Shown here: positions 15,877 through 46,308 of the stretch, one piece after another
Position numbering within the stretch: position 1 is the stretch's first letter
How the letters are laid out: every line of letters begins with the position of its first letter
Assembly (NCBI GenBank): GCA_008330645.1
Contig: VLTN01000052.1
Location: 124,001-188,000, forward strand
Direction: 5' to 3'
From: Cafeteria roenbergensis
Taxonomy: Eukaryota; Sar; Bigyra; Bicosoecida; Cafeteriaceae
DNA length: 64,000 nt
The notes under the pieces: generated by a model
What the model saw: the letters and a program-made list of their open reading frames with translations, nothing else
Database searches by the model: none
Told to the model about the DNA's origin: nothing
Translations under genes and position numbers: made by a program

Positions 15877-15918
<42 letters not shown>

Positions 15919-19526: not shown

Positions 19527-20042
19527 GGCCGGCTGGTCTCAGCCAGCCTTGCAAGATAGTGCTTTGGGAATGGGTATCCTGAACATGTTCTGAGGTGTTG
19601 GTATTGTTTCAAATATGGGCTCAGCAATCGTTGGTGTGGCACGCCAACGCTTGCACAGCCGTTCGCACTCGAACCCGCCCCATCAAGCACCGCGCAGCAG
19701 GAATCCAGCGGTGGAGCCCGGCATGGGCTTGCTCCCGTTTGAACCGCATGAGCCAAAGGTGGGCAGCAGGTCCGGGCGAGCGAGGCGCTTCGGATTGGAC
19801 AGTTCCGCGCGTAGTTGCCGGAGGCATGACTCTCTTGAGAGCCGTCGTGCAATTGGCAAACAGCTTTTCCCGACTCTGCCCGCAGTCAGCGCCTATTTGA
19901 AGCGACTGTCAAGCCTCGCCGTTGCAGTATTTCGTTGCGAGCACACGCGCCCGGCGACCGTGCATCGCGCCTTGGCGACCGCATAGCAAGGGGAGGGGGG
20001 CGGGGAAAACATCGCACCCTTGGCCCGATCCCGTCGTGCTCA
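19527..20042. other. Intergenic region
   Basis: These 516 bp separate the VWA stop from the first ATG of the giant LRR gene. This is the least GC-rich stretch nearby (around 19580-19620 there is TTGGTATTGTTTCAAATATG). It should contain a 3' end and a promoter. A GGGTTCGAGT box on the minus strand near 19670 suggested a tRNA T-arm, but no matching stem follows it. Confidence 0.45.
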
Positions 20043-23000
20043 ATGTCTGCGCGGCCTCGGCCCAGGGAGCGGCGGGAGCGGCCGCCGCAGCTGGCACTTG
20101 CAGCGCAACCGGGCTCCAGCACCTCCCCCAGCGGCCGAACAGAGTCGTACCCGGACCTTGTGCGGCGGCTTGGCTCCCACCAAGCGGCCCGCGACTATGT
20201 GCGAGCCCAGACCCGGGAGCACGAGCAGCTGGCGGCCCGAGCGGCCTATTTGGCCGAGCCGCCCGCCACCAATGCCGCCCACACCGAGACGAGAGGCCGG
20301 CCCGACTACCGCATCACCGCAGCTCCCTTCCAAGGAGAGAGCGGGGCGGGCCCACTGTCCCAGATGGTGGCAGCTGGCCTCCTGAGCAGCTCTGAGGCGG
20401 AGGCGGCGGCTCAGCGTGCTCTGCGACAGGCAACTGTCCCGCCTTCGCTGCCCAGGCCGGCAGGCGGCCCCGTGGCCGGTGCCTGGTCCGCAAACACTGC
20501 CAACGCGCCCCCGCGCGCCGCCAGGGAGCGCGCAGGCGCCAGCCTGGCAGGCAGCACTGGCAGCGGCGGCTCCGCCTCCACCGGAGCCCTGCGGCAGGGC
20601 GGCGTCGCTGTCCCCAGCGAGGCGTTGCCTTTGATTCATGGGGTCACTGGAGCCGGTGCGGCGCTACATTCCTCCGGGATCGGATCAGCGGTGGTCGATC
20701 GCAGGGGTCACTTTTACACGCAGGCACTGAACCCAAGAGCCCCTGGGGCGGCAGAGCCAGTCTGCGGCGGTTTCGCAACACTGTTTGCGAGCGGAGCCGC
20801 GTCGACTGCAGGAGCGTCTGCGGGAGTGACGGCTGCCGGGCAGCACACCGGATCCGCCTCCGGCGCTGGCGCGTTCAACGCTGGTGCTGATGTTGAAACC
20901 GTCGCTCGCCGCGGCAGAGCTGGATCGCGAGGCCCTTCGAGCTCACTTCCGCCGGTTTCGCCCAGGCAGCAGACGGGCGCAGTGGTTTCCAGATCGCTTC
21001 CATCGGCGGAACCTTCCACCGTTCGGCCCGTGCCTGCCCTGGCGCCGCGCCCAAACGCCTTCCAGCGGCGCGGAGATCGTGCCGCGGCCGTGACGGAAGA
21101 CGACCTGGCCGATGACGTCATCACAACGGCGGTGCGTCACGCGCTGGTCACCGGGGTGTTGGCTCTGCCACGCGTCGGGCTGACGTCGCTTGTGCCTCCG
21201 TCGCTGGGAGGCAGACAAGTGACTTCGCTTCCGTTGCGGGAGCCGGCGCAGCCTGCCGGAAGGACAGGATCTGGTTCTCTGAAACCGAGGCCCGTGGCCG
21301 CAGCTGCCGCGGGAGAACGATTGGCCGCGGAGCCGCGGGGCATGGCCACCGGGGGCAACCCTTCTGGGTCGGCCGCCACTCCGCGGTTTCGTGGCTACGG
21401 AGTGGCGAGCTCTGCTGCTGTTCCAGCGGCTACCGGCTCCACCGGCGGGGCTGCGACTCTTGCTGGTCCGACTCGTGACCCGGGCCCGAGCACCAGCGGC
21501 GCGCCTGCTCCTGGCCCGAGCACCATGCCTTCAGCAGCGGTTTCGCGTGGTGGAAGGGTGAGGTGGGAGGAGCAGCCCCAGGCGGGATCGCGTCTCTCAA
21601 CGCCCATCCTTCCGTTGGACGCGGAAGGCGATCTTGGAGCGACGCACCAGGGCTTGCTTGGCTCTGCCGGTGCAACACTTCGCGACGTTTCGTCTTCGGG
21701 CAGAGCCGCCACTCCCCTCAGCGCATCGCACGGGCGTGGCGTCGCCGCTGCCGGGGTTGACGGCCAGTCTGGTTGGCGTCCGGGCTCTGCTGCAGCTCTG
21801 CCGTTCGACACTTCGGTTGCACTTGCAGGAATGGGGCTTGCGGATGAGGCGACGTCGAAGGACGCGGCTGCGAGACGCGTCACGTTTCCCGTTTCCGCCG
21901 CTGAGGCGGCGTTGCGGCGGCTGCTGGAGGCCAATGTCAGTGGCTCTGCCAGGGTCACTTCGCTCGACCTGTCCCACAACCGGCTCGCAGCGCTGTGCCC
22001 GGCGGGTGGCGACGCTGGGGCGGCGCTGTCGCGATTCCTGCGGTCTCTGCAGTCGGCTCAGGGGCCCCCAGTGGGTCCTGTTCAGCCACTGGCGCTACAG
22101 CCGGGAGCGGGAGTCGCACCGGCGGGCGCGGGCGGGGGCGCTCGCGGACCGGCGGCCTGGACAGCGGGAGTGGCCAGCGCCACGGGCGGCGCCGCTGCCG
22201 ACGCCGCTGCGCTTCGCGAGGCCGCAGGGGCTGGGCCGCCTGAGGATAACGAAGTGACCCGTCAGCTGATATGCAGAGCCACTTCGATTCAGTTGTCCAG
22301 CAACCGCCTCCGAGGGATCACGACGTCTCTCGCCGAGCTGCCACTCTTGACGGCCCTCGATCTGAGTGACAACCTGCTGACTCACTTGCGCTCGCTCCAC
22401 CACAAGTCTTTGACTTCACTGGACTTGGCGCGAAACCGCATCGTGACGATGGATAGCCTTGCAGGCTCGCCGCATGTGAAGTGGCTCTGCCTGTCCGGAA
22501 ATCGCCTGTCGGCTCTGCCAGTGCATATCCGCTGGATGAGGAATCTCGTGCGGCTTGACGTGTCCGGCAACGGGCTTGCCACTCTTGCCATGACCGGTCC
22601 TGACTCGCCACCGACCCCCCCTGCCAGCGGGTCGCTGCGGACAGGAACTGTCAAGGCCCCCCCAGCACCAGGGGCAGCAACCAAGGTCGCCATTGCGGCG
22701 TCGAAAGGTGGTCGGAGTCTGACCCTGGATGGCAGCGGACATCCTCTTGCACCATCAAGTCGTGGTCAGACCGCCGAGCCACCCGCTCTTTCGTGGGAGC
22801 GGGTCACTGATGCATCCACCGGCGAAACCGCATTCTTTTGTGCGGCGACGGGCGACATTCGCCGCACGAAACCGCCAGGAATGTCGATCGACGAGCGGCC
22901 CATCGGCACGGCATCAGCCGCGGCGCCAGCGGCCACGGCCTCACGGGTGGCTTCCACCCGCGCTCCCGCCGAGGACAGTGCGCGCGCTGGTAGTCAAGCC

Positions 23001-26000
23001 GGAAGTGGCGGAGGCGAAGGCGAAGGCGAAGGCGGAGGCGGAGGCGGAGGCGGAGGCGGAGGCGGAGGCGGAGGCGGAGGCGGAGGCGGGGGCGGAGGCG
23101 GAGGCGGAGGCGGTGCTGTTGTTGCTTCTGGTCCTGCTGTTCGTGAGGAGTCCGTCGCCGTGGAGGCGAGCACGCAGGCCGATGCAAGCGAGACCGTTGA
23201 TGGACTGGCTTATGATGGGGCCGTGATTGGGGACTGGGCTCGTCAGTGGTCGGCAGATCACGTCGCGTGGTACTATGTCCGTTGCAGCACGGGTCACTCG
23301 CAATGGGAGCCGCCTGAAGAGTGGCAGGCAGTTGCAGGCACGCCGGCATCAGGGGACTGGCGCGCGATGGGGGACGGAGCCGGCAGCTGGCATGCCGGCG
23401 CCAATCCTTCCTCCGCGGTTTCGCAAGGCCTGAGCCACTCTCCAGCGCTAGGCGGGCCGGTGTCGCTCACGGAGATACTGGGGCCCGACGGCGTGTCATG
23501 TCTCACTCCAGTGACTCCGCACATCCCAGCCTCGTCCGCCGCCTCAACAGCAAGCGGAGGCGGGGCGTTCTCTGGCGTTGCCGGGGGCACGGTTGGCGGC
23601 GCGAGCGACGGCTGGGCTCGGAGCGGTGCTCAGCCGTGGTATGACCCGCACCTGACTGGGTGGGAGGCAGCGTCAGCTGAGCCTGACTTCACATTGGGGT
23701 CAGACACCGCCGCACGGACCGGCCACCATGGGGCACAGGCCCAATCGGCGGCCGCCTCGGCAGAAGCGACCCCGGACGGCAGGGTCTCTTCTGGGCACTG
23801 GGATGTGGTCTGGGCCTCCGGCTCTGCCGTTGGCTCTGCCGTGGAGTATGCCACGGACCTTCTCAGCTCTACATCGGGCTACGACGGCTCTGCAGCCGGT
23901 TTCGCGTCCGCTCTGCAGAGCGACGCTGCGCTTGCGGCGAGCGACATTGCCTCTGCTGCCGAGGGCTGGCCAGCTGGCAGCCGCGGCCACAGGACCGCGG
24001 GTTCCAAGTCCGGTGGCGGTTTCGTTGGCGACTCAGGCGCACACGCTGTGTGGGACAGCTCGTACAACGGCCACGGTGGTTTCGCGTCCGGGTGGAGCGA
24101 CCGCGACGCTGATGGTGGTGCGGGCGCAACGGACTGGCTCTTTGCCATTGGCGGGCCCAACCACGGCGAGGGGCGCGGGGCTGGTCCGAGCGCGGAGCAT
24201 CCAGGTCGAGGCGGCGTCGACGGCGCCGATCTGCTGCGCGGGCGGCTGGACCGCTCAGCGTGGGAGGAGCAGGGCGAAGGGGGACTGGAGGGCGCAGCTG
24301 GCTGGTCAGCTGACTGGTCAGCTGACGCGGACGGGAAGCACGGAGACGTCGACCACACACGCAAGCCTCAAGAGTGGTACACGGCGGTTTCGCGTACCGC
24401 AGCTCCGGTTCCGATGGGCGCCGCCTTGCCGGCTCTGCCTCCGCTGTTTGAACTGCCCGAAACCGCCGGCCGAAGTGTGGAGGGTGGAGTGACGAGACTG
24501 GCGGGCCCAGCAACGGGCGCTGACTCGACCTCACCTCCAGCGCGCGGAGTGGTCAGACCCGACCGGGTGATGGTCTATGTGAATATGCAACTGCAACTGG
24601 CGTCTCTTTCCGTTCCGCCGTCAGCTGACCGTTGGCATCAGCTCCACTGCCTGACGGAGCTGGACGCCAGGCGAAACCGCTTGAGTCACGTTCCGGCCGG
24701 GCTGTTTCGCATGCCTGCCCTCCGGAAACTCCTGCTTGACCGCAACAGGATCGTGGCTCTGCCGCCAAGCATTGGGGAGGCAGGGCGATTGGTCGAGCTG
24801 GCGGTTTCGCAGAACTTGCTCCGGCGGTTTCCCGACGAGCTCTGCCTGTGCACTTCGCTGGAATCCCTGTCAGCTGACTCGAACAGGCTGGAAGCCCTGC
24901 CTGCCGACCTTGGCGAGCTGTCCGGGTCGCTCAAGTCGCTCCGGCTGTGCGATAACGTGCTGACTTCACTTCCGCTCGGAATGGCTCGACTGACCCGGCT
25001 GGCTGACCTCCGTCTGGACAGGTGTCCGTTGCGCTTTCCCGATGCCGCAGCGGTCTCGCGCGGAGTTGAGGGCATCCGCTGGGCATGCAGACAGGCGCTC
25101 AGGGTGCACGAACTGGGGGCCCCGCCGTCACTGGCCATCGTGAGGGGAGGAGTCGCTGGCGAAACCGGCGCGCCAGAGGCCCACGCAGCCAAGGCGGTGT
25201 TCCAGCGGCTGCAGCTGGCGGCGTCGGGTCTGACGCGGGGCGTGGTGCTGAGTCACTCGTTCCAGCGAATCGCCTCCGTTCCGGAGGCTGTGCTGCGACC
25301 GCTGTGGCAGAGCTACGGGCTGACGTCTCTCAACCTCGACTTTTGCGGCCTGGAGGCGCTGCCGGCCGGCTTGCGGGGTCTGACCTCGCTCACGGAGCTG
25401 TCGCTTCGAGGGAACAGCATCACGCAACTCGCGGCCGACGTCATCGGACAGCTAACCGACCTGCGGTCCCTCTTGTTGCCGCGAAACCGCCTCGTTAGGC
25501 TGCCGCCACAGCTCTTGCTGCTCACGCGAATGACCGCTCTCGACCTCACGAGCAACCGGCTGGATCGGATTCCGTCGGCTCTGCCGACAGCGATGCCTGC
25601 CATGCACGCCTTAAGCGTCGCTCACAACAGCCTGCGGGCCCTTCCCGTCAGCATCGGAGCGATGCGGCGTCTCTCGATCCTCGACGTCTCCCACAACAAG
25701 CTCACCCAGCTGCCGTGGTCGATCGGCGGGATGGTGTCGCTCACGGCCCTGTCCGCCAGCCGAAACCGCTTAGGTGCAGCCACGCTTGGATGCGGCCTCC
25801 CTGGCACCGTGGGACTCCTTCCACGCTTGGCGGCGCTCAGGCTCGACGGCAATAAGATGCGCCGACTGCCGGCGGGGTTTGCTGCTCCCGCTTCTGGGCT
25901 CTGCAGCACTCTCCAATCTTTGTGGCTGCAAGGAAACGACCTACCGGATCTCGGAGACTTGGCCCTGCGGCTGACGTCGCTAGCAGAGCTGAAACTGACC

Positions 26001-29000
26001 GGAAACCCCCGGATGCGGTCGCCGCCCGCGCGCATGCATGGAGCCAGCATCCATGTTCTTCGCGATTATTCCCGGAAACGCCTGATGAGACTTGAGGCTG
26101 CTGCGGCTGCGCTGGAGGCTGCTGGGCTCGACGTTGTTCGGCACAACTTTACGCCGGCGGCCGGGTGGTCAGACCGCGGTGCGGGATTCGGCGGAAGGGA
26201 TGGCAGGGCCCCCGTTGCCCCAGGCGGAGGGGAAGTGAGAGACGCGGTGTTGCTCGGGCTGAGGGACCTCGGGCTCCCAGGCAGGCCGGGCGGGCTTGGC
26301 GTGCAAGTCGGAGGATCAGACGGCGACGACGACGGCACGGCGGGCGGCCATGGCGGTCGCAAAACCGCTGCAGGCAACGCGCTTCGCTATCGTCCGCGGG
26401 GGCACGTCACGTCGATGGGCGGGAAATCGGCGCATCTTTTGCCCGAAGACCGCATCGCGATCGACGCTGCCGTGGACGTGTTGGTCAACGGCGACTTCGA
26501 AACCGTGCCTGCAACCCCTGCGTCGCTCCAAGAGCTCGCTAGATCCTTGCTCGAGCGGCGCCGGTTCGGATATTTGCAGGCGCAAGTATTTGCGTTTCAG
26601 GATGTGCTGGACGTGGCCTTCCAGCAGAGCATCCTTGGCGACACGCACATCGACGACGCGCTGTGGCGGCCGTGGGGCGAGGCCGGGGAGATGGTGCCGT
26701 GCTGGGGTCTTGATTTGGACGGGGTGTTTGGAGCGACGCTGGTGCCAGCTGGGGTCGCTGTGGGGTGGTCTGACCCCGTGCGGGTGCCGCTGACCACTCT
26801 GCTCCGTGGCGGTCACCGCCGCATCAACCAGGCCTCGCTCGACGGAAGGGTGGTTTGGCCGGTGAAGGGGCGGGAGGAAGAAGAGTGGTGGGACAAGCGA
26901 TCGACCAAGGCGGCGGAACGTGCCGCCGCTGCAGCAGCTGACGCCCTCATGGCAGCCGCAAGAGCGGAGGAGGCAGCGACAGCCGGCAGATCGACCAGGG
27001 ATGGCGGCCAGACCACCAGCGGTCACCACGGCGATTCAGAGGCCAAGGCCGACGGCGATAGCGACGGGAGCAGCGTCGACAACGACGACGACGACGGCAC
27101 CGGTGGCGGCACCGGTGGCGGCAGCGGCGGCAGCAGCGGCAGCGGCAGCGGCAGCGGCAGCGGCAGCGGCAGCGGCAGCGGCAGCGGCAGCGGCGGAACA
27201 GGCAATAGCGGTGGTGTTGGCAACGGCTTCCGTGAAGACGTCGGCCCGCATGCTCGTGGCTCTGCCACTGGCTCTGCCCCGGACGCCGCAGGTGATCCCA
27301 CTTCGGCACCCGCATCCGCCTCTGGTCAGCCGTCGGCTGGACGTCAGCAGGCGGGGCGACGCGCTGGCAGAGCCATGAAGTCTGACTGGCAGAGCCGCAT
27401 CTCTTCGACGTTGCCTGGTGAGGGCGAAACCGCTCGCGACGAGCTTGGCTCCCAGCCTGCCATTCCGACCACTGCTGGAGGCGGCGCTGGCGCTGGCGCT
27501 GGTGGTGAGTTGCAGGCAGTGGTCGCAGGGCCAGTCACCGGCCCATCACGAGCGGCGCTTCCGCTGGCAGCCACTGCCACTCGTCCTGATGCGGAGTTGC
27601 CTGCGTCACTGGATGCCGCCGCTCCGACTCCCCCGCCACCAGCAGCTGATGCGGCCAACACTCTCCGGCCCGAAGACGTGGCCGCGATTGGGCGGGGAAA
27701 CTATCCCCCGCCCCGCCCGTCTCTCTCACTCGTGTTCCTGCGTCCGCCGGCTCTACCGGAAGGATCGGATTGGCTGTTTGCACTTCCAGAGTCGGCCGAT
27801 TATTCTCCCGAGGTGGAGCTGCAGCCGGGAGTTTCCGGCTTTGACGCGCACGAGGCGATGGCACCCATCAGAAGGAGGGTCGGCCTTCCCGGACCCGCGG
27901 TCAGACCCGAGGCAGTGTTGCGATCGGTTGCAAGAGTGGTCGCTGCGGTCAAAACCGCAAGCGGCCGACGTCGTCGGGCAGAGCAGGATGCCAGGGACGG
28001 CAATGACCAACATCAGACTGAGGCTGACGACATCAACCCGCCGACGTCAACGGCAGGCATCCCGCAGACGCTGCAACCAGGTTTTGGCCATCGCAAGCCC
28101 GGCAAATCCGCTGGCAGAGCCGTGGACGGCGCGATTGGGGGCGTGCAGTCCGGGCCAGCCTTCGACTCACAGGCCGAGCTGCTGTTTCGCGGTCACGCGC
28201 GGGCGGCAGAGCATGCAAAGCGAAGGCAGGAGCGACGTCGGCGCCGGGAAGTGAGACGGCTGGCAGAGCTGGAACAGCAATCCATGTCAGCTGGACACGA
28301 CACCAGCGCCCGGTCACGCCCTTCGGCACGTCATGCCGAGAGGTCGAGCGGCAACACCGCCTTCGCCACCGCTGCCGGCAGAGCCCTCGCCGACGGCGCG
28401 GTGGCATCGGCGGTGGAACGCGCGAACGCGCAAAACCGCGCCCTGTCGGCGCTGGGCGGCAGTGTGGCAGCTGGAGCGGGACTCGCAGCTGATGCGCTGG
28501 GGAGCGACTCGGAGTCTCTCGACTCGGGCTCGACATCGACGTCGTCGGGTGGGTCTGCGATGAGCGGTTTCGCTGACTGGCGTACCGGCACCCGGAAGCC
28601 AAGGCGATCGACCAAGGGCGGTGGAGGCGCTGCACCCGTGGGCCCGGCAAAGGCACGCAGGGGTCGCTCTGGGTCAAGGCGGCGAAACCGCGCAGGTGAC
28701 GGTCCCCGCGGAGACCGGCCTCGGCGCCGGGGGTCGGACGAGGACAGCGGAGAGGGTGCTGACGTGGCAACAGACGCCTCGAGCGACGCGAGCGACGCGT
28801 CGTCTCTCACCTTGTCTGCGCCCGAGGAGGACGACGACCTTGGAGGCAACGCCAGATCCTGTCTCCTGGAATACTCCAAGAAAGTTCCTGCAGAGCTGCA
28901 GAGCGCGCACACGATGGCACTTCGCGGGATGGTGGAGGAGGCGGAGGCAGTCACTCAGGCAGAGCTCGATGCTGATGCGAAACTCCGCAGCAGAGCCATG

Positions 29001-32000
29001 GTGGCAGGAGGCTCTGCCGACTCGAAGGGCTCTGCCAGCTCGAAGAGGTCTGCTGCAACTGCAGGATCAAAGGGCTCTGCCGGGCGGGCAGCGGGCGTGC
29101 TGTCAGCAGTCGCCGGAGTGGCTGCGTCTGCGGTGCGTGGGGCTGTGGCGGCAGGCACTGCAGCTGTTGCAGCGGTTTCGGGTGCAAGTGCTGACTCGGG
29201 CGACGAGCGGGAAGCCAGTGACTCGGGCAGAGCTGGTGGCAGAGCCGGTCGTCGGGCGGGTGCGGGACGCAGCCGCGAAGACGCCGGCGCCGACGTTCGC
29301 GGTGATGACGAACCCAGCCCAGCGTGGTTCTACGCGTCGCTGGAGGAGCTGGAGCGGCGTCTCTTTCCGCCGGGGCCTGCGCTCGCAGAAGTGTTCTTCG
29401 AGCCAAACTCGCTCAACTGTTTGGCGAGACTGCCGATTGACGTGGAGGCGATGCTGCCCGTTGCGCCCACGAAACCGCAGCTGGCTCCACGGGGCCGGGG
29501 GGCGATTTCGGCCAGGAAGCCGACTTCGGCGGCGCAGCCGCAGCGTGGCGAGGGCGAGCGGGGTGAATCCGCCTCCGGGTCAGGCGCCGTTGCTGGCGCT
29601 GGCGCTGGCGCTGGCGCTGGCGCTGGCGCTGGCGCTGGCGCTGGCGCTGGCGCTGGCGCTAATGCTGGCGGGGGTGGTGGCGAGGGGGCGCCTCCGCCCG
29701 GCGCGCCGCGCATCCGCCCTGACCGGCGCCAGTTCCAGCGCGACCACCGCTACTACCGCAGGCCGGACTGGCGGGTGCGTGGCGGGGCCGTTGTGGACGT
29801 AAACCACCCGGAGGAGGCGGCGGCAAGGCGCCGCTCTCGCCGGCACGCCATGCCGCTCATCACGCGCGTCAAGTTTGACCTGGACCGTGCGGAGCTGGTG
29901 CGGGTTTTGAGCGAGTTCTCGGGCCCGTATGGGCCTGTGGCCGAGGTCGAGGCGGCTGTGGCCTTCCCGGACTGTCCTTGCGACGTGCTCGCGGAGCGGC
30001 TGAACGTCAAGGTGCGGCAGCTGGTGGCGTACAGGTCCCGCAAGCGTGACGGCCAGCTGGTGTGGGGGCCCCTCCCGCAGGAGGTGACCGCGGGCCTTGC
30101 CGAGCAGCGCGAGCTGCAGGCGTGGCTGGCCGACCAGGAAGAAAAGGAGGCAGCGGGGGGGGGCTGCTTGCCCGGTTTTGCAGGCAAAAGCGACGTTCGC
30201 AAACGATGGGAGGCTGAAAAGCGCCGAAGGCAAAAGGTGCGGGCGCGCGCACGCCGCCAGGCCGTGCAAGAGGTCCGGGAAAAAATCCGGCAAGCCAAGG
30301 CCGAGGCCAAAGCAAACGGTATCGACCCGAGGGCGGCAGTGGCAGCCGCGCTTGCGGGGGCAGACCTGGACAGCATGGGCGAGCTGGACATCGAGGACAT
30401 GGACGTGAGTTTTGCGGCGCGCGCCTTGGCTGCAGCGGTAGCGGCGTGCGCCCTGGCTGCTGCGTTGGTTGCCGTGGGCTTGCCAGCGTGGGCCCGGTCA
30501 CTGCGCGTCGGGGGGCCCTGTGCCACCGTGTCACTCGTTTGGGCACCGCAGATTGAAAAGGCAGCTTCGGCCGAGGCCATCGTGGCCCGCATCGAGGCCG
30601 AGCAACGCGCAAAGGAGGCGGCCGCGTCCTACGCGGCAATCGGGCAGCTGCCGGGTGAGGAGGACGACCTCGGCACGCGCATCGCCTGGCCTCGCCGGGA
30701 CGGGCAGGGCCGCTGGGTGCGCGTTCTCAAGGGGGGCGACAACGGCATCGGCCGGCACCTGCCTTCGTGCATCCGCCCGGGCATCGTGGTCCAGCAGCGA
30801 ACGCTGTCCCGGCTCGACTCCGTGCGCAAGCGAGCCGAAATTCGAGAGATCATCGCCCTCGGCCAGCGCCTCATTTCCATGCTCCGGCACTGGACCATGT
30901 CGGCTGCGGGGCGCCGAGCCATCGAGATCGAGGCCGAAAGGCGGCGCGGCGAGGCCCTGGTCGAGACAGCGGGCCAGCTGCGGCGCAAGGAGGTGCTTGA
31001 CCAGCGCGCGCGCGTGGCCGAGGGCGTGGCCCGCAGCGGGGCGCGCGAGGTGAACAAGCTGCGCGCCAAAGTCGACGCTCTGAAAGAGAGCAACGCGTTC
31101 GACCAGGCCGTCACGGACGGACTCGCAGAGGCGGAGCAGGAGTTCAAGCGACGCACCGCGTCGCTCAGGCACGCCAGGGACAGGCTGGCCAGGGCAGAGG
31201 TGAGCCTGCTTCCGGCATTGAAAAACCCGCCGATGCGGCCAACGAAGCGGTCGGCGCGGCCGCGGCTGGACGCGAGCAGGATGAATGATTGCGCCTGCGC
31301 GCTGCGCCCGCCAAGGCGCCCGTGCGCCGCGCCGCGCGTCATTGCTCCGTGCTGCCGCTCTCGGTTTCGCGTCGACCCTGCCATCGCAGCGCAAGCTCGC
31401 GGTGCTTGAAGAGCGGTCTCGCCGCCCCCTCAGCATGTGGCGGCTGGCCGTGCTCAAGGCGCTTGAAAAGCGCCAGCGGCGCACTGCGCTGAACCTGGTG
31501 CTTGAGAAGAACCGGCGAAAAGCCTACCGTAACGGCTGGCGGCGCCTGTGGGACGGCGACGGTGGTGAGTCGCCCCTCGCAAGCGCAGGGCAGCTGGAAG
31601 CGTGGCCGCCCCCCGTCTCGAAACACGCGCCCCCCACGCCCCGTCCCCACGCCCCGCGCCGCTGCCCCGCCCCCGCGCCGCGCTCGGTGGCTGCCCGCAG
31701 GCGAGGACTTCCTGGCGTGGGTGGAGGACATGCTGGTGCGACGCACCGGGCTGGCGCGCTCGCTGCTCAAGGCAGCGCCCGCAGAGGCCGAGGACGCCGA
31801 GGGGTGGGGCGGCGGCGAGGGCTCCACGGTGTCGGAGCGGGTTCGCGTTGCCAAGGAGCTTGCGGCAGGCGGCGCCCGCCGCGGTTTCACAGTGGACCAG
31901 GACGGCCAGGCGCTCGTCCGGGAGCTGACCAGGACGATGCTGAGGCTGAAGATGCGTAAGGAGCGAGCGCGCCGCCGGCAGGCGGGCATGGATGCGCTCA

Positions 32001-33369: not shown

Positions 33370-34994
33370 ATGGCCGGAGCGACGCGCGCCGAAATCGAAG
33401 AGGCCTGGGGGCTAACTGGCACAGTGAGCCGGCGCCGTTTGCGCCAGCACCACGCGGCCGCGACCGCATCGAGCCGCGTCAACCGCGTTGCGACCGCGCT
33501 CCCCGCCGCCGCGACTGCCGGCACCGTCCGACCTCGCGCTCCGCCTGTTGATCACCCCAGCCTGGACACACTGACATGCACGTGGCGGTTTCTTCCGGCG
33601 ACCCGGCGCGCGTCCGGGAGCTGCTGCTTGCGAGGCCCGACGCGGTGCACGACCGCACGCGCCTCGGGGAGACGCCGCTGCACATCGCGGTGGCCCGCGC
33701 GCCCCGAGAAGTAGTCCAGATGCTGTGCGCGTCCGGGGCCGACCCTAACGCGCGGAAGAACGTGAGGTTCGGGCGCCGCCACATGGCTTGCGCAGCCGCA
33801 CCGCCGCTTGCCGCAGCCCTGCCCGCACCCTTGCGCGCTCCGTCGCACACGCCGGCGACTGGGGCCGGCCCGTGGCGCACGTCCCCTCCCATACCCCGCA
33901 GACTGGCGGCTCACCGTTGCACGAGGCAGCCTGGATGGGGCGCGACTCCGCTGTGGGCATTCTGCTCCGGTTCGGCGCCGACGTTCACGCCCTCGATTCG
34001 GTGAGCGCACCTTGGCAGATGCCACCCCTGTCTGGCGCAGCCAGCGGAGCAGAGCGCGGGCGGGCGCGAGGATCGCTTCGCCGGGCGCCCGATGGCTGAG
34101 GCTGGACGGGTCGGCGGCCGGCGCGTCAGCCTCGGGAGAGGCGTCCCCGCCCCGGCCCACGCTCTCATCACTACGGGGCAAATACCCCTGTATGGGCGCT
34201 TGGACGGCCAAACACGCGGCCCCATCGCGATGCCCCTGCCACCCGCGCACACCAAGCCGCGGAAGCCCGATACCTCCTGCCGGCCCGCGGGCCCCAGCTC
34301 CGCCCTCCGAGGGCCTACCAGTGACACCCTCCTCCTCCTTGTCATCATCATCCTCGCCACCGCTCGCCCCTTGTCGCCGCAGACTGGCGCGACCCCGCTG
34401 GATATGGCCAAGGCCCACCGCCGGGTGTCAACGGCAGAGCTGCTCGCCGGCCGCGCCGTCCAGCTCAACGAGCTGCGCACGGACGCCGCCAACCAGGCTC
34501 GTCGCCGCGAGTGGCAGACGCTCGTGGCAGCGAAAGCCAAGGCGGCGCGCGAAACCGCGGCCGTGGGGCCAGCGCTGTGGGAGACGTCGGCGCCGCCGCC
34601 GCGCATGAAACCGCTGCCCTTCTTCGAGGCCGATGCCAGGGGCGGCCACGCCACGGGCTCCCCCGGCGGCGGCGCGTCGTCGAGGGGCGATGACGGGGGC
34701 GGCTGGTGGGAGGCTGGCTCGGCAGCGGGCTTGTCGGGCCGGGGTTCCGTGGCCAGCGGGTGGTCGATCGCTTCGTCGCGAGCAGCCGTTGCCGAGGCTG
34801 GGTCCGAGGCGGGGGCAGCCGGGCACCGGGGGCGCGGCCCAGAGGCCGACGAGGTGGATGCGCGCTCCGTCGGCCGCGTTGCTCGGGACGCCGATCGGGC
34901 GGCGCGGCTGCTGCTGCCGCAGGACGAGGGGCCTGCAGGGGCGTACAGCAGAGGAACCTCGGCCAGGGGCACTGCGGGGACCCACCGTGGCTAG
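33370..34994 (+). CDS. Small ankyrin-repeat protein
   Basis: Four exons, 33370-33423, 33561-33761, 33902-34000 and 34383-34994, give about 321 residues; all junctions are phase 0, with donors GTGAG(C/G) and acceptors CAG. Joining exon 1 to exon 2 creates GTPGHTDMHVAVSSGDPARV, a good first ankyrin repeat. The second reads GETPLHIAVARAPREVVQML, the third (one whole 33-codon exon) GGSPLHEAAWMGRDSAVGIL, and the fourth starts TGATPLDMAKAHRRV. The exon borders follow the 33-residue repeat unit, which strongly supports the model. The remaining 170 residues are disordered and Gly/Ser/Ala-rich. Ankyrin repeats bind proteins; no catalytic domain is seen, so the partner and role are unknown. It starts only 83 bp after the giant LRR gene, so its promoter is either very short or inside that gene. 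Confidence 0.8.
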
Positions 34995-36860: not shown

Positions 36861-39800
36861 CTAGCGCCTGCGACGCCTGGCGGCGCGCGCCACGGCGGCC
36901 ACACCACCCGCTGCCGACTGAGATCGCAGGTGCGCTGGCGCTGCAGGCGCAATGCTTGCACCGCGCTGGGCTCCCGACCGGCTTGTGCTGGTGCCGCCCG
37001 CGGACCCAACCTCGGCCTCAGATCGCGAGGAGCCGCCGCCGCTGGCCCGGCCTGCCCCTGAGCCGCCACCAGCACGACCCCCTGCCCCCCCGCTGCTGAC
37101 GCTGCCACCTGCCGCCTCCGCCGCCCATTCCGCCGCCAGCTGGCCAACGTCGCGCTTCCCCCGGGGCACCTGCGGGTGCCGCGCGAGCCCGAACTCCTCC
37201 GCTTCGGCCCTCGCGGCCTCGGCTGCTGCAGCCAGCGCTGCTTCGCGACGCTCCAGCTCGGCCCGGTCGACGTCTCCCCCCTGCTCCGCGAAGCACACGC
37301 TGGCTTCGCTGGGAGCCGCGCCCAGGCGTCTGGCATGGGCGACTGCAGGCGCAGTCGCGGCGGCGAGTGTTCCCGCCAGCGCCGCCGACCCCGCCTGCTG
37401 CGGGGAGGGCTGCCGCTCAGGCGGAGGCGGCGTCGCCGCCTGCATGGCGCGGCTGGCGGCCCCTCCCCGCCCCGCCGCCCTCGTGCTGGATCTGCTACCG
37501 CTGCCGGCTGGGGGGTCTGCCGGAGCTGCTGCCCCGTACGGGGCCGGCCACACCTTCTTGAACAGCCGCCCCGACGGGCCGACGCTGCCCTGCCCAGCGG
37601 CGACTCTGCCGTAGTAGTCGACGACGTCGTCCGGCTCTGCGCGAGTCAGGCCGCTGCGCGCAGACGACCCGCTCCGAGGAGGCGCATCGCCCAACACGAG
37701 CAGCTCTGCAGGGACGTCAACAACCTGCCCGGCATGGGCGGTTTCGCCACTGACACCGTCTGCGCCGTCCTGTTCGTCCCTGTGATCGGAAGCGGCAGAG
37801 CTGCTCGGCGCCCCCCACGCGTCGCTCACTCGCTCGCCGCGCAGGTCATCGGAGCCAGACCTGGCCACGGGCGCCGCTTGCCGCGCCGCCAAGCCCCTTG
37901 CGCCGCCGGAGTCGCTGCTGCTGCCGCTGGCCCTGCTGTCTCCGGTGCGGTCACCGCCGGCTGAGTTGGCCTCAGCCGCCAGACCGCCGCCAGAGCCTCT
38001 GGCCGCTTCGGCCAGTCTTCTCGCCGTCGCCCGCAACGGCTCTCCTGGCAGGGGGGCAGCGAGCAGCGCACGGTCGGACGGCCTGCACGGATTCCCGGAA
38101 GGATCGACGTCGTCAGCGCAGCCCTCCAGCCACTCGGCATCCTTCCCGTGTGACACTGACGGCGCGAAGCCTCGAACAAGCAGAGCCGGCTCTGCCACAT
38201 CTGGGCTGGGCGGAGACTCCAATGGGCCGTCGGTTGAGGCGGCAGGGTCGGCTGTAGCCTCCTCCTGATTGAGCGATGACTCGGCTCTGATGCGCAGGCG
38301 ACCGGCCTCCACCGCGGCTGTGAGCTCTGCCTGCGCCGCCGCCCCGCCTGCCCCGATCCAGCCGGTGCTGCCCTGGCCGTGCGGCGCGTCGCCGGGCCAA
38401 GGGCCCTCGGCGGGATGCATCGCCGAGTCAGCCGGCCCGTCCTCTGGGCGGCCAGCTTGGGAACCAGCACGCTGCTCGTCCGGCCGCTCAGCCGGCCCGT
38501 CCTCTGGGCGGCCAGCTTGGGAACCAGCACGCTGCTTGTCCGGCCGCTCAGCCGGCCCGTCCTCTGGTCCGCCAGCACGCTGGTCGTCGCGCCGGGCCCG
38601 CTTGGCTGCCGTCGGGTGCGGCTCCGGGTCTGGGCCTGCCACCCCCGACCCGCCGCCCTCCGCCCGGGCGCCGGCCACGCTGCATGCCGCAGCGACGGTG
38701 CTGGGTTTCACGCCGCCAAGCGGTTTCGCGGGTCCAGGACCAACACTCCGCGAACCACCAGGCGCTTCGGCTCTGCCAAACGAAGAAATGTGGTCTCCGC
38801 CACCGCCGCTAGCACCGTCGCCACCGCTGCTGCTGCTGCTGCTGCTGCCAGTTGCGCTCGCAGTCACAACGAGCGGCTCTGCCAGCGACACGGGAGGCGA
38901 CGGCGATCGACCCCGTTTGCGCGCCCGAGCGCTGCTCCTGGGCGAAGCGGCGGCGCCGGGGAGCTCTACCTTCACATCGGATCCTTCCTTCTTGGGGGCC
39001 GCGGCAGCCCTGCCGAACATTTCTGCTAGCTTTGCCTGCCGGGGACCAACACTCCCCGGTGCCGCAGTGCCCGCCCGGGCGCGGGCGGCAGACTCTCGAA
39101 GGCGCGGGGTGGTGGGTGGGGCCGCCGTGGGGGGCGCGCTGGATGTCGCCTGCCCTGCGTGCGTCGGAGTGACGGCGCCGGCGCCGGCGCGCCCCTGAAG
39201 AGGCGGCAGCGCCCCTTGGGCCGGTGGCGCAGCGGCCGTGGGTGCCCCTGTGGCTGCTGCGATCACTGCGGCGGACGCGGCGCCTGCTTTCACAGGCACG
39301 AAGGAAGGCACGGCCGGAACGTGATTGACTGGCCGCTGGTTGGCAGCTGACCCGGGCTGAGCGCGCCCTGCTGCCCTCTTCAGCGCCGATGCAACCAGCT
39401 CTGCCGCAGCCGACGAAGTGGTTGAAATCTCGCTCGGCACGGCAGAGCCGCGGTCGCTCTCGCTTCGTCGAGACACTCTTCGTCGGTCTGGACCCGACAC
39501 GTGATCGGCACTCTCTTCGCGAGACACTTCTCGCTCTGCAGGCCGAAGGCTCTGCCGTGCCGAGAGGTCCTCTGTGGTGTCGCCCCGCGCCAGCTGACAC
39601 GTGATTGATGCCTCGGGCTGTCGGGAGCCTGCAGGCGCTTGACGGGCGTCTGATGCACTTGCGACTGACGGGTGACTGGCAAGGCGGGAGCCCTCCAGTG
39701 TAGCGGCTCCACGGCCGCCGTCTGCGCCGGCAGCGGCCGGGGCTTGGCTCGCGGGGCGAGACACGCGGCCCGCCGGCGCTGCATCGCGCCTTGCAGCTGC

Positions 39801-41695
39801 AGCCACGGCGAGTCGGGGCGCGCTGGCGGGGAGGCTGGCAGCATCTGCAGGGAGCGTTCCGTCGGCATCAAGTGTGGCCGACGTCATCTGCGAGGAGGGG
39901 AGCGACGCGTCGCTGAGCGTCCCGTACTCCTCGTAGGGCTTGCCCGCGGTCAGCGCGTTGGCCAGCGTGCGAACGCCGACTCTGAGGGCTCCCGCTGCCT
40001 TGGCCGCCGTCACAGCTGCGCGCGTGGCGCGCAGGGCTGCGCGTGCAGCCTGGGATTTGACGTCTGCCGGGATGACCACGACGGCGGGCGGCATGCCGGG
40101 TCGAGGCAGCGACGACGCGCAGCGACTCCTGATGACGTCAGCGACTTCCGCGATGTCCGCGGGGTCCGACGTCAGCATGCGACACTCCGCACCGGCCAGC
40201 TCCAGCAACGACGCGAAACCGCTGTGCGTGGGTTCGTCGAAGAAGAGGAACAAGTCCTTCCCAAACAGCGTTCGCCTGGAGCCAAGGCGGACGGCGGTGC
40301 TGCCCACGGTGACGGCGTGTCGCTGCGCCCCAGCGATGGACCTGCGGCCAGCGGATCGAGCGCGATGCCCCGGGCGGAGAGGTGGAGTGGCTTGGGAGAG
40401 TGGACTGGAGCCTCTGGCGGGGGGAAGTGTTGGGAGCGGTCGCTTGAGCGGCTGGCGCGCTGCGTACGCACTGCTGAGGGCGGGGCGGCGCCGACGAGAG
40501 TGGTGGGGGGGGGCGGCGGGGGGCGGTGCTCACGTGAGTGGGTGGTCAGCGGCTGCTGCGCTGTCCAGCCTTGTGTTGCACAGGGCCGTCGCGGCGTCCA
40601 CCGCAGAGGGCAGCACCACCGGCAGCCCCCTGACGATGCTTGTGAGGGCGCGGACAGAGAGCCTCCCTGCGCGGCAGACGAGCACGTCGGCGGCCGCCGC
40701 TTCGGATCCGGGCGGCGCCAGGCCGATGCCTGCGCAACACGAAAACGCCCGTGCAACGTGCGCAGCAACGAGCTCAGCAGAGGGGGGGGTGCAGTCTTCG
40801 TCGGCAGCTTGGCGAGGCGAGCGACGGCCGGTGCCACGCGCAGGTTCGCTGGCCGGGGGGCTCCTGCGCCGGCGCGCCAACGCCATGCGATGCGCATTGA
40901 TTGTGTCGAGACTGCGCGAACGCCGATCGCTGAGGCAGTCTGGTCTGGGCGCGCTGCCGGCGCCACGGCTGGACCGCGCGCTCCTCACACATGGCCTTGG
41001 CTGCGAGCTCGATGGACTCTCTCGCAGAGGTGCTCAGAGACGCCGAGGTTGCCAAAACCAAGGGAACTCGCCGAACTCTGCGCCGAACTCAGTCCGTCGC
41101 GGGCACAACTGGGACGTCGTTGTGGCAAAGTGCCCAGAAAGCTCGCCAACTCCCTGCTGCTCCCGGCAGCCCCCTTTCGGCACGGGCTCACGTGAAGGTT
41201 GCTTCCGCGCCGAGCCGAACCGAGGCTCCGTCCGGAACCACAGTGGCGGTGCCATCGGGCGGGCAGCGCGTGCCGTTGACAAACGTCTGCGCAGCGCAGG
41301 GAGCAGCCGCGAGGGGGCGCGCAACCGCTTGGGTGCAAGAACATGAGCAGTACGAGCTTGGCAGGCTGCGCACCAGGAACTGCCGGCTGTGCGCTGCTCA
41401 CTCCTGTGCGCGATTTGTCCGCGATGCGCAGCGTCCCACTCGGCTCCAACGAGAGCTCCGCGTGCAGCCGCGAGACGTCGGCCTTCACGACGACGTATTG
41501 CGCATCTGCACGTTGGCGAGACGGGGGGAAAGGGGGATACCTTCACGGCGACAAGGCAACGGCGGGCAAGGACAAGCGGCAGCCGGCACACTGGAACGAC
41601 GCGCTCCCCTCACCGCGAGCGCTGCGTCCGACCTTCACCGAGCCCACGGAAATCCACATGCATTCCTTATTGGTTCCTCCCTCAAGCAGCCACAT
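36861..41695 (-). CDS. NBS1: Nibrin/NBS1 homologue (FHA-BRCT-BRCT, MRE11-complex subunit)
   Basis: The MRE11-RAD50-NBS1 subunit that senses DNA double-strand breaks. Exons: 41695-41614, 41505-41402, 41286-41192, 41077 to about 40990, about 40911 (or 40863)-40534 and 40299-36861, roughly 1,390 residues; phases match throughout, only the exon 4/5 junction is ambiguous. It starts MWLLEGG, like human MWKLLP. The spliced FHA domain reads VKVGRSARDAQYVVVK, VSRLHAELSLEPSGT, IADKSRTGTFVNGTR, then RLGAEATFTVRRVPLVLA, keeping the Gly-Arg, Ser-Arg-x-His and Thr-Phe-Val-Asn phosphothreonine-binding signatures. BRCT1 has ADVLVCRAGRLSVRALTSIV; BRCT2 starts RRTLFGKDLFLFF. A very long disordered linker contains a 60-bp tandem repeat. 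Near the C-terminus GRLFKKVWPAPYGAA resembles the MRE11-binding KKFKKVTYPGAG of human NBS1. Length is nearly twice the human 754 residues, because of the linker. Identification rests on domain order plus motif. Confidence 0.85.
38430..38567 (-). repeat. 60-bp tandem repeat, about 2.3 copies
   Basis: Two nearly identical 60-bp units (38430-38489 and 38490-38549, differing at one base) plus the start of a third lie in frame in the linker of the nibrin homologue. They encode a 20-residue unit containing GRPEDGPAERPD and QRAGSQA. The near-identity suggests recent duplication or ongoing homogenisation. Confidence 0.9.
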
Positions 41696-44479: not shown

Positions 44480-46308
44480 ATGGCGACGCTCCGCGATCTG
44501 GCCCGCATGAGGGAGGCAGACGCGCCTTTGGACTTGGACCCGGAGGCTGACGGCTTCGGGGACGACGCCCGGACGGGTGAGGCCTTGAAACAGGGACATT
44601 GTGGCTTTGCGCTTCGGAAACCCGCCACTTGCACCCGCTCTGGCCACGCTAGCTCGCCCATGGGGGAGAACGCCAAGCGGCATAACCGCCACATGTCGGC
44701 AGTGTGCGGCTTTCCTGGCCTTGCCCCGCAGACAGGCAGGAAACCGATGGGCACGAGGCGCTGGCGCTGAAGCCGTCTCGCCTGAGAGGGATGGGCCGCA
44801 AGTTCCAGTCCGGCGCGTACGCGGGGAGCCGCGCAGACTCGAGCTCGCTTTTTCCGAGCATGGCCCCCGATGCCGCGGACCTTGCTGGCTCTGAATCTGA
44901 CTCCGACGGCGAAGGCGTGGACGATGACGACGACGACCAGTTCCGCGCAGCAATGACGGCGGCAGCAGCCTCGGCCGGCCCTGCTGGCACCTCCAGCGAC
45001 GATGACGACGTCAGCGAAAGCGAAAGCGACGAAGACGGCGATGACGACGACGACGACGACTCAAGCAGCGATGGCGGTGACGCTGGCAGAGCTGGTCCCG
45101 CCGGCGCGGATGACGTGGTCGCCCAGCTGGAGCAGGAGGAGCGCTCCGGCCTCGCACTCGTGTCCAGGGCGGCGAGAGAGGAGGCAGCCCGCGGCCGCTC
45201 CGCCATCGAACAGCTCCGCACGTTCGACCGGCTCATCGAGACGCGGATCAGGCTCCAGCCGCTCCTCGTCGCCGCCAACACCCTTCCCCGGCCCGGATAC
45301 TTCCAGGAAATTTCTGCTCGTCGGACCAAAGTGGCCGACGGGGCGGCCAGGGCCCGAGCCGAGGCGGCGGGCCTGACGGCGGCTCTGCTTGCGGTTTCGC
45401 GAGCCCGGGCGTCGCAGTGGCCGACGGTGGCGGCGTCGCTTCGCAAGCTCGACGCGTCTCTGGGCGTGAGCGACGTGTCAGGCCACGACGCCAGCGACCA
45501 GGAGGCGGCCTCGTCCGCCGCCGCAGCCGCCAAACGCAGCCGCAAGAAGCGGCAGCGGCCCCACGACGACGTCGTGGCCGCGCCTGGCGCCTGTCTCGAC
45601 CCCTACAGCGTGGACGCCGCCCTCAGGCGCGCGGACGCCAGGCGCAAGCGCGCTCGCCCGGCAGCCGCCGCAGCTGCGGCCAGTGGCGCCGGCGCCGCCG
45701 TCGAGACGCCCACGGACGCCCTCTGGGCCGCCCTCTGCTGCCAGTGGGACGCCCTCCTTCCTCCGGCAGAGCTGGCGATTGACCAAGCGTTTGAGAGCGT
45801 GGGGCTGGTGTCGGGCCTGCGCAAGGGCGGCGGCAGTGGCGGCGCTGCGGGGAGCGCTCTGTCCAAGGCGCCGTCGGCCCAGGCAGCGGAGGCAGCCTCA
45901 AACGACAGCGTCGTGCGGCGCCGCGCCCACCCGCGACAGGGAGACGTGAAGGTGGTTGGCCACGCTGTCGTCGCCCCCACGGCCACGAGCAGTGACGACG
46001 CCGGGGCTGTTGACGAGGAGGCGTACGACGACACGGGGCTGTACCACGCACTGCTGAAGGACCTGACGGCGGCAGTCACCGACGCCTCGGGCCGGGGCTC
46101 CACCGTGCAGGCGAGCGCCGCGGCCGGCGGGCACAAGGCGGGCATGAAGCGAGTGACGCGCGACGTGGACCGCAAGGCGAGCAAGGGCCGTCGGCTGCGG
46201 TATACCACGCTGGAGCCCATCGTGTCCTTCTTGGCGCCTCGCCCGCGGCACGACGCGCCCGTTGAGACGGACGCCATTTTGGCCTCGCTCTTCCAGTCTG
46301 ACGCGTGA
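44480..46308 (+). CDS. AATF: AATF/Bfr2/TRAUB family ribosome-biogenesis protein
   Basis: Exons 44480-44576 and 44732-46308 give about 557 residues, with donor GTGAGG, acceptor CCGCAG and phase 1. The N-terminus MATLRDLARMREADAPLDLDPE is followed after splicing by ALKPSRLRGMGRKFQSGAYAG, then a long acidic stretch (about 75-145). A helical middle with EQLRTFDRLIETRIRLQPLL matches the AATF leucine-zipper domain. The C-terminal VDRKASKGRRLRYTTLEPIVSFLAP ending in ILASLFQSD is the TRAUB domain, whose VDxKASKGRKxRYxVHxKLxxFMAP and SLF signatures are almost complete. In yeast (Bfr2) and animals (AATF/Che-1) this nucleolar protein works in the early 40S (SSU processome) pathway; animal AATF also touches transcription and the DNA-damage response. 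An essential nucleolar role here is inferred from orthology. Confidence 0.92.

Follow-up and report, generated by a model that had tools for sequence, protein, structure and literature searches.

What makes one short DNA word recur, in different frames and orientations, along a giant leucine-rich repeat (LRR) gene? The first-pass annotation had listed 16 positions of the 8-mer GGTTTCGC/GCGAAACC in this gene; all 16 carry it, the usual extension to the 10-mer GCGGTTTCGC/GCGAAACCGC holds at 12 of them, and the codon readings given, which span several frames and both orientations, are right. In the window (the whole 64-kb stretch of DNA analysed) there are 33 8-mers and 24 10-mers, against 3.35 and 0.50 expected from an order-3 Markov model of the window. 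As seen from Table 1, 17 of the 33 8-mers lie inside the LRR open reading frame (ORF) and 16 elsewhere. Nowhere in the window are the words denser than in the LRR ORF, which has these 17 8-mers and 22 copies of a companion word, GGCTCTGCC. An Rfam scan of the window gave 0 matches.

Table 1. Positions of the LRR ORF and of the words in the 64-kb window
Feature	Coordinates	Strand	Remarks
ORF, 3824 aa, leucine-rich repeats	19935..31409	+	Pfam LRR_8, E 2.3e-39
GCGGTTTCGC	5428..5437	-	not in LRR gene
GCGGTTTCGC	6055..6064	-	not in LRR gene
GCGGTTTCGC	20767..20776	+	LRR ORF
GGTTTCGC, 8-mer only	20954..20961	+	LRR ORF
GCGGTTTCGC	21537..21546	+	LRR ORF
GCGGTTTCGC	22430..22439	-	LRR ORF
GCGGTTTCGC	22822..22831	-	LRR ORF
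GCGGTTTCGC	23415..23424	+	LRR ORF
GGTTTCGC, 8-mer only	23898..23905	+	LRR ORF
GGTTTCGC, 8-mer only	24078..24085	+	LRR ORF
GCGGTTTCGC	24384..24393	+	LRR ORF
GCGGTTTCGC	24671..24680	-	LRR ORF
GCGGTTTCGC	24801..24810	+	LRR ORF
GGTTTCGC, 8-mer only	25159..25166	-	LRR ORF
GCGGTTTCGC	25481..25490	-	LRR ORF
GCGGTTTCGC	27424..27433	-	LRR ORF
GCGGTTTCGC	28564..28573	+	LRR ORF
GCGGTTTCGC	28682..28691	-	LRR ORF
GGTTTCGC, 8-mer only	31363..31370	+	close to LRR ORF end, beyond the 20769..28689 span
GCGGTTTCGC	34549..34558	-	not in LRR gene
GCGGTTTCGC	37738..37747	+	not in LRR gene
GCGGTTTCGC	38720..38729	+	not in LRR gene
GCGGTTTCGC	40213..40222	-	not in LRR gene
GCGGTTTCGC	45391..45400	+	not in LRR gene
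GGTTTCGC, 8-mer only	48320..48327	+	
GGTTTCGC, 8-mer only	53556..53563	+	
GCGGTTTCGC	54144..54153	+	ABC-transporter ORF
GCGGTTTCGC	54647..54656	+	ABC-transporter ORF
GGTTTCGC, 8-mer only	54681..54688	-	
GCGGTTTCGC	57599..57608	-	ABC-transporter ORF
GGTTTCGC, 8-mer only	59095..59102	-	
GCGGTTTCGC	59329..59338	-	ABC-transporter ORF
GCGGTTTCGC	60187..60196	+	ABC-transporter ORF
Companion word GGCTCTGCC/GGCAGAGCC, 22 copies	20750..29246	15 +, 7 -	first 20750, last 29238-29246
Minor word GTCAGCTGA(C), 6 distinct LRR-gene sites	22261..24878		22261, 23672, 24305, 24317, 24620, 24869
Minor word GGTCTGACC, 6 LRR-gene sites	22764..27907		22764, 24551, 25377, 26167, 26767, 27899

When synonymous codons of the LRR ORF were shuffled 200 times, the 8-mer appeared 1.2 times on average (maximum 5) versus 17 observed, and the 10-mer 0.33 times (maximum 2) versus 12; together with the Markov expectation, this rules out chance or codon composition. 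The word is thus not equally frequent in codon-matched sequence, the comparison that the first-pass annotation had itself proposed; the excess is real, but for the 8-mer in such sequence an expected count 'well below one' was too strong. Among 10 ORFs, several of them chosen as word-rich, the tripeptide GSA is spelled as GGCTCTGCC in 29 of 72 cases (1.5 expected) and AVS as GCGGTTTCG in 13 of 29 (0.4 expected), and in the same ORFs, in several frames, the words come together with amino acids more often than composition predicts. The uncommon codons TCT, AGA, GTT and CGA are used within the words far above their own frequency, and the words occur in all six frames of the pooled ORFs (which may overlap, one copy per word being double-counted by frame). 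The shuffle, the frames and the codon usage support the view of a dispersed DNA-level word, regardless of frame and strand.

The pattern extends over the whole genome and is not a feature of one giant gene, as had been thought; it is especially dense in the LRR gene (span 20769..28689, 22-fold above the genome mean). In the 36.3-Mb nuclear genome of this eukaryote, with a GC content near 70%, GCGGTTTCGC occurs 2,499 times versus 249 for the reversed string, and GGCTCTGCC 10,998 times versus 994, so that each exact word is in very high genome-wide excess. The strands are used almost equally (1251/1248 for GCGGTTTCGC, 5445/5553 for GGCTCTGCC). Both main words are exact, 9-10 letters long, and scattered in genes on both strands and in every reading frame, with thousands of copies, many of them intragenic. 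This scatter hints at a cellular factor or process by which the two words are recognised or propagated. Each differs from its own reverse complement; GTCAGCTGAC, a minor word with 428 sites versus 43 for its control, is palindromic. A literature search for four of the word strings as whole words found none (strings within longer printed sequences would escape it), and broader searches on such words found nothing relevant.

We sampled the genome as 19 unselected pieces of 10 kb at round coordinates, and added selected pieces: three taken for word clusters, one adjoining the window and one for minor-word clusters. A twentieth round-coordinate piece, consisting of N only, was left out, although its letters entered the k-mer tables. 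The pools for near-copies, duplications and frames combined the word-cluster pieces, the window-adjoining piece, the window and the 19 unselected pieces; those for third-position GC (GC3) and protein order and for hairpins also took in the minor-word piece, with unselected ORFs reported apart for GC3 and length. GCGGTTTCGC and GGCTCTGCC co-cluster at the 10-50 kb scale, and their densities co-vary among the 19 unselected pieces (rho 0.54, p 0.017). A 10-kb piece picked for the minor word GTCAGCTGAC and the near-copy GCGGTTTCAC holds 12 copies of GGCTCTGCC and 3 of GCGGTTTCGC, versus genome means of 3.0 and 0.69. On contig 1 a third word, CAACGGACA, is unclustered (variance/mean 0.8), and it does not track GGCTCTGCC (rho 0.14, p 0.61). 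The fixed spacing or alternation with GGCTCTGCC that had been proposed did not hold: in the pooled pieces no class of distance plus orientation recurs among exact words within 400 bp, and the commonest class of 7-mer cores takes 4 of 45 pairs, pair counts that are inflated because the pool for these cores also took in further pieces, some of which repeat stretches of the window, of one round-coordinate piece or of one word-cluster piece. Orientation is mixed in the LRR gene, and on contig 1 the runs are longer than random (17 runs among 50 sites versus 26 expected, p 0.007).

The words are sharp, with flanks near background in a 294-kb sample (the window, the 19 round-coordinate pieces and four selected pieces), and window positions 23500-25700 match only themselves genome-wide, which rejects copies of a longer repeat. 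Near-copies with one change, reported as common, are so for a few changes and not for most. In the same sample (observed/expected), GCGGTTTCGC has excess for last C to T (13/0.8) and G9 to A (7/0.6), and GGCTCTGCC for first G to A (44/8.9), last C to A (31/6.7) and last C to T (25/8.7). Counted as excess copies, these lie mostly at outer positions; the inner exceptions are GGCTCTACC (10/1.1, the highest ratio among GGCTCTGCC near-copies) and GCCTCTGCC (42/19.5). Simple CpG or C-to-T decay is contradicted by two observations: the two products of deamination at a single CpG differ by a factor of five (GCGGTTTCAC 539, control 103; GCGGTTTTGC 105, control 79), and GGTTCTGCC, a C-to-T derivative of GGCTCTGCC, occurs 293 times, below its control (615), beside 10,998 exact copies. 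The near-copies therefore point to a sequence-specific recognition step behind the creation or upkeep of the words. Because their spectrum is position-specific, a bound protein, as first proposed, is plausible.

The explanation that we favour, tentatively and at somewhat under even odds, is molecular drive. The two main words would belong to a small set of exact words, with GCGGTTTCGC and GGCTCTGCC as its main members, spread over the nuclear genome of a flagellate resembling Cafeteria, and would act or arise in double-stranded DNA by way of sequence-specific recognition rather than via encoded protein or mRNA. A recombination or repair event would recognise the word and favour the copy carrying it, and exact words would pile up until coding constraint balances the drive, densely in some islands and in weakly codon-biased genes and sparsely in strongly codon-biased ones. 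Word density drops as GC3 rises (rho -0.42, p 0.016, 32 ORFs), a trend that is not significant with the window excluded (rho -0.32, p 0.12, 25 ORFs). Long ORFs (longest open frames, not annotated genes) cover 84% of the 19 unselected pieces, in which 33 copies of GGCTCTGCC fall in ORFs and 6 outside (84% in ORFs), and 11 copies of GCGGTTTCGC in ORFs and 0 outside. Non-ORF DNA is thus not the richest in words, contrary to what weak constraint alone would predict, which counts against the favoured explanation. A dependence on gene length is uncertain: it appears in the pooled pieces (rho 0.33 and 0.25; 105 ORFs, in a pool that includes the word-rich selected pieces) and is not significant in the round-coordinate pieces alone (rho 0.22, p 0.30, 25 ORFs). 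In favour of drive, the genome has two matches to TP6A_N (Spo11/TopoVI-A family), which may include topoisomerase VI-A rather than Spo11. Against it stand the behaviour of CAACGGACA, the negative search for a cytosine-C5 methylase described below, and the available part of PMC6972860, which gives no known sexual cycle for C. roenbergensis. A search for paralogues of the window-adjoining piece that could show word gain yielded none, just a 65-bp repeat and a single 75% match.

Known word systems offer partial parallels. Chi, KOPS and similar oriented recombination or segregation words are short, asymmetric and recognised at the DNA level, as the present words may be, and follow replication direction, whereas here the strands are nearly equal genome-wide and orientations run long on contig 1 and mix in the LRR gene. 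We know of no process like natural transformation in this flagellate. The DNA uptake sequences of Neisseriaceae and Pasteurellaceae are likewise short exact words in thousands of copies, but are bound to natural transformation in bacteria; in the parts of PMC3630211 and PMC1939737 available to us, molecular drive plus selection in constrained regions is argued for them, and PMC1939737 extends the drive idea to other overrepresented sequences, prokaryotic and eukaryotic. HIP1 (GCGATCGC), the highly iterated palindrome of cyanobacteria, is, as far as the available text of PMC4390886 goes, an exact short word with a high observed/expected ratio genome-wide, is replaced or accompanied by other words in some genomes, and has near-copies that deviate mostly at the ends, as does much of the excess here apart from the inner exceptions. 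The same text makes it a perfect palindrome, bacterial and tied to CGATCG/GATC methyltransferases, whereas here the main words are non-palindromic, lie in islands of a eukaryotic host, and a six-frame genome search, blind to introns, found no match to the cytosine-C5 methylase PF00145.

The strongest rival, possible yet given somewhat less credence than drive, sees in the words sites bound by sequence-specific DNA-binding proteins, with a role in gene-body regulation, chromatin or replication, that ordinary selection keeps and that cluster like cis-regulatory modules. Sharp words, position-specific tolerance and the co-clustering of the two main words suit it, as does non-ORF DNA being no richer, which implies more than drift in free DNA. 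But selection would have to reach very widely to maintain roughly 11,000 sites of a single word, the words bring amino acids in excess of composition in several frames, spacers, the usual home of regulatory sites, are not preferred, and spacing grammar is absent. Unlikely, we judge, is a functionless by-product of mutational or repair bias, such as the modification-directed mismatch repair proposed for HIP1, which has a precedent and a ratchet model (as far as the available text of PMC4390886 goes) and fits the outer position of most excess near-copies; against it stand the missing PF00145 match, the non-palindromic main words, non-ORF DNA that is not enriched and the inner position of the top GGCTCTGCC near-copy.

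Tiny mobile elements that left footprints or remnants, or end joining that copied scraps, are a disfavoured and very improbable source: the units are short, near-palindromic and dispersed in both orientations, but in the pooled pieces target-site duplications showed no excess at four word boundaries (k = 2-9), a longer ancestral or conserved unit is absent, and C-to-T derivatives at two tested positions are not raised or barely raised. A DNA or RNA hairpin element, its stem changing with pairing kept, is not borne out by raw stem counts taken without expectation (137 for GGCTCTGCC versus at most 17 in 12 other same-loop stems; 53 for GCGGTTTCGC versus at most 4 in 9 other stems). A protein-level cause, in which ordinary codon bias and preferred motifs (RNR and ALP among the LRR residues, GSA and GRA as linkers) yield the words, deserves almost no credence: some LRR-domain copies do encode RNR and ALP, GSA and GRA are the commonest frames of GGCTCTGCC, and protein stretches at GGCTCTGCC are slightly less ordered (mean 0.222 versus 0.253, p 0.002; those at GCGGTTTCGC show no such difference, p 0.67), but the shuffle kept the protein and lost the words, and the six frames and overused codons likewise rule out LRR-encoded motifs as sole cause.

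Why bacterial genomes carry highly iterated words is still a puzzle. The present ones are best read as a eukaryotic nuclear analogue of bacterial HIP1 or DNA-uptake words, perhaps spread by molecular drive linked to recombination or repair. It is possible, at about one chance in three or slightly less, that a eukaryotic nucleus has selfish or self-marking words of its own, the recognition by a recombination or repair factor rewriting thousands of codons and lending genomic islands word mixtures of their own. A eukaryote in which two exact words dominate (~11,000 and ~2,500 copies) and prevail over codon choice would offer a culturable test system, with four sequenced strains if the source is C. 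burkhardae, in which word gain, loss and recognition could be tested directly. It is also a warning that DNA words can steer codon and protein evolution in such genomes.

All 16 of the sites listed for the word in the giant LRR gene by the first-pass annotation were confirmed, 12 of the 16 as the full 10-mer GCGGTTTCGC. Within the window (64 kb, C52:124001-188000, 69.5% GC), this 10-mer occurs 24 times and its 8-mer core GGTTTCGC 33 times, against 0.50 and 3.35, respectively, expected under an order-3 Markov model. Codon-matched random sequence had been named as the control that might abolish the excess. We therefore permuted the synonymous codons of the LRR ORF (window 19935..31409, plus strand, 3824 aa), keeping the protein and its codon usage. 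Over 200 shuffles the mean was 1.2 copies of GGTTTCGC (maximum 5), against the 17 present, and 1.7 copies of the companion 9-mer GGCTCTGCC (maximum 6), against 22; the excess thus survives codon matching. The span 20769..28689 is a dense spot, with 12 GCGGTTTCGC and 17 GGCTCTGCC present against 0.55 and 2.4 expected at the genome-wide rate. Some long ORFs lack the words: a 2,519-aa ORF at window 10285-17844 has no GGTTTCGC and four GGCTCTGCC, and the open frame filling one 10-kb genome piece (L015) has neither main word. The LRR ORF also contains hexanucleotide tandem repeats, encoding Gly-rich, Gly-Ser and Ala-Gly stretches.

Hexanucleotide tandem repeats in the LRR ORF
Feature	Window position
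Hexanucleotide tandem repeat	23007-23113
Hexanucleotide tandem repeat	27095-27194
Hexanucleotide tandem repeat	29592-29660

The words occur genome-wide. Exact counts on both strands of 36,303,456 bases (167 contigs), with each string read backwards as its control, gave 2,499 GCGGTTTCGC (control 249), 10,998 GGCTCTGCC (994), 689 copies of the minor word CAACGGACA (171) and 428 sites of the palindrome GTCAGCTGAC (43). When the non-periodic 8-, 9- and 10-mers of a 294-kb sample are ranked by overrepresentation, the GCGGTTTCGC and GGCTCTGCC families come first. In a 304-kb sample, GGCTCTGCC is joint first with an overlapping word among the 1,256 same-composition 9-mers seen, and GCGGTTTCGC ranks third of 3,044 same-composition 10-mers seen, behind two triplet repeats. 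A passage of PMC8547959 uses the name C. burkhardae for the Cafeteria roenbergensis of the CrBVI assembly.

The words override coding. In ten ORFs, several of them picked as word-rich, Gly-Ser-Ala is spelled GGC-TCT-GCC in 29 of 72 cases (1.5 predicted by codon usage), Gly-Arg-Ala is spelled GGC-AGA-GCC in 21 of 60 (0.69) and Ala-Val-Ser is spelled GCG-GTT-TCG in 13 of 29 (0.4). Compared with shuffled proteins, some of the peptides are raised (GSA 72 vs 49, GRA 60 vs 44, RFR 10 vs 2.6, RNR 9 vs 1.9) and others lie near expectation (AVS 29 vs 24, ET 38 vs 35, QS 58 vs 56, AL 273 vs 285). This places the cause in the DNA and not in the protein. All six frames are used in long ORFs, and the two strands carry nearly equal numbers of GCGGTTTCGC and of GGCTCTGCC genome-wide. 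In long ORFs (one copy of each word counted twice in overlapping ORFs) GGCTCTGCC is found 64 times sense and 51 antisense and GCGGTTTCGC 35 and 16; the sense excess of GCGGTTTCGC is absent in the LRR ORF (6 and 6). In a piece chosen for word clusters (L029), a 2527-aa ORF with CC2D2A C2 and CEP76 domains (1565-9145) has 5 of 5 GCGGTTTCGC copies sense, though its GC3 is 0.90.

Counts of the two main words co-vary across 19 unselected 10-kb pieces taken at round coordinates (rho 0.54, p 0.017). They also do so, among the copies listed (plus-strand only for GGCTCTGCC), over the initial 800-840 kb of contig 1, in 20-kb bins (rho 0.39, p 0.0098) and 50-kb bins (rho 0.50, p 0.048). Both words are overdispersed in this stretch, with variance/mean ratios of 3.0 and 2.9 over sixteen 50-kb bins. 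CAACGGACA is not overdispersed on contig 1 (0.8); there it shows no correlation with GGCTCTGCC (rho 0.14, p 0.61) and a weak trend with GCGGTTTCGC (rho 0.49, p 0.054). On contig 5 (928 kb), 13 of the 15 listed GTCAGCTGAC sites fall at 663-882 kb (C5:663596-882127), a regional word mixture; a piece chosen from this cluster holds 12 GGCTCTGCC and 3 GCGGTTTCGC, in agreement with the co-clustering prediction. The piece adjoining the window (L032) carries a giant word-rich ORF (3-8969, 2989 aa, GAF and cyclic-nucleotide phosphodiesterase domains; 19 GGCTCTGCC, 5 GCGGTTTCGC).

The window and pieces L009-L028 together contain 32 ORFs that reach 700 aa or more, and across these GGCTCTGCC density falls as third-position GC rises (12.7, 6.8, 3.3 and 0.5 per 10 kb in GC3 classes of increasing value; rho -0.42, p 0.016); with the window left out, this is a trend only (25 ORFs, rho -0.32, p 0.12). 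In the 19 unselected pieces (84% ORF) copies inside and outside ORFs number 33:6 for GGCTCTGCC and 11:0 for GCGGTTTCGC. No enrichment in non-ORF DNA is seen there, which argues against a plain constraint model. Two other overrepresented strings in L009-L028 are, in contrast to the main words, spacer-biased: CACGCGCAA (12 of 24 outside long ORFs, 16% expected, p 1.5e-4) and AAGGTGAG (9 of 23, p 0.008). They may represent a promoter element and a 5' splice site.

The words have sharp boundaries. Flanks of GGTTTCGC are near background outside the 10-mer, save a mild purine preference directly upstream, and those of GGCTCTGCC show only Y before and R after. Flanking duplications were sought around the words and not found; nor was fixed spacing, which had been suggested for the two words and did not appear in a comparison of distances. 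Elsewhere, a ~65-base repeat at L032 9516-9589 (C52 ~123.5 kb) accounts for 71 of the 72 genome matches listed (82-94% identical), several copies lying <10 kb from a contig end (e.g. C1:1401, C52:409-583, C3:1165447 of 1167112); it is possibly subtelomeric, with the L032 copy internal. A tandem array at 2725-8682 of another piece (L022) comprises ~15 copies of ~395-base units (shifted self-alignments 83-96% identical).

The words are near-palindromes with 3-bp arms. Variants with altered arms around an unchanged loop are seldom seen, which means that what is conserved is not a hairpin. Simple decay was also rejected as the source of near-copies. If the CpG at positions 8-9 of GCGGTTTCGC were simply deaminated, GCGGTTTTGC and GCGGTTTCAC would arise equally. 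Genome-wide, GCGGTTTTGC lies close to its control (105 vs 79), whereas GCGGTTTCAC is well above its own (539 vs 103). A single C-to-T change turns GGCTCTGCC, with its 10,998 copies, into GGTTCTGCC, which is below control (293 vs 615). Most one-step neighbours in the 294-kb sample are near expectation and a few are raised, the raised copies by number mostly at the ends. This spectrum is the profile of a recogniser tolerating certain letters, and its position specificity implies that the words are either maintained, or were recently made, by something with that specificity.

In behaviour the words resemble HIP1 and DNA uptake sequences, and by membership tests they are assigned to neither. No published report of four of the word strings came up when the full text of 5.39 million open papers was searched by whole word, and topic searches of the literature returned nothing relevant. 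The main rival to the account favoured below, and one that a single genome does not tell apart from it, is that selection for binding sites maintains the words. We favour molecular drive: recognition of the word would be linked to recombination or repair, events of which would spread it, and coding constraint would hold the drive in balance. A balance of a similar kind is argued for bacterial uptake sequences in PMC1939737, and a repair ratchet is proposed in the HIP1 literature (PMC4390886). A six-frame profile search found no PF00145 methylase match in the genome, which weakens the 5-methylcytosine version of that ratchet. Two TP6A_N (Spo11/TopoVI-A family) matches in the genome indicate no more than that enzymes of this family exist; on topoisomerase VI in SAR, a figure legend in PMC11302465 names this species as the bicosoecid examined.
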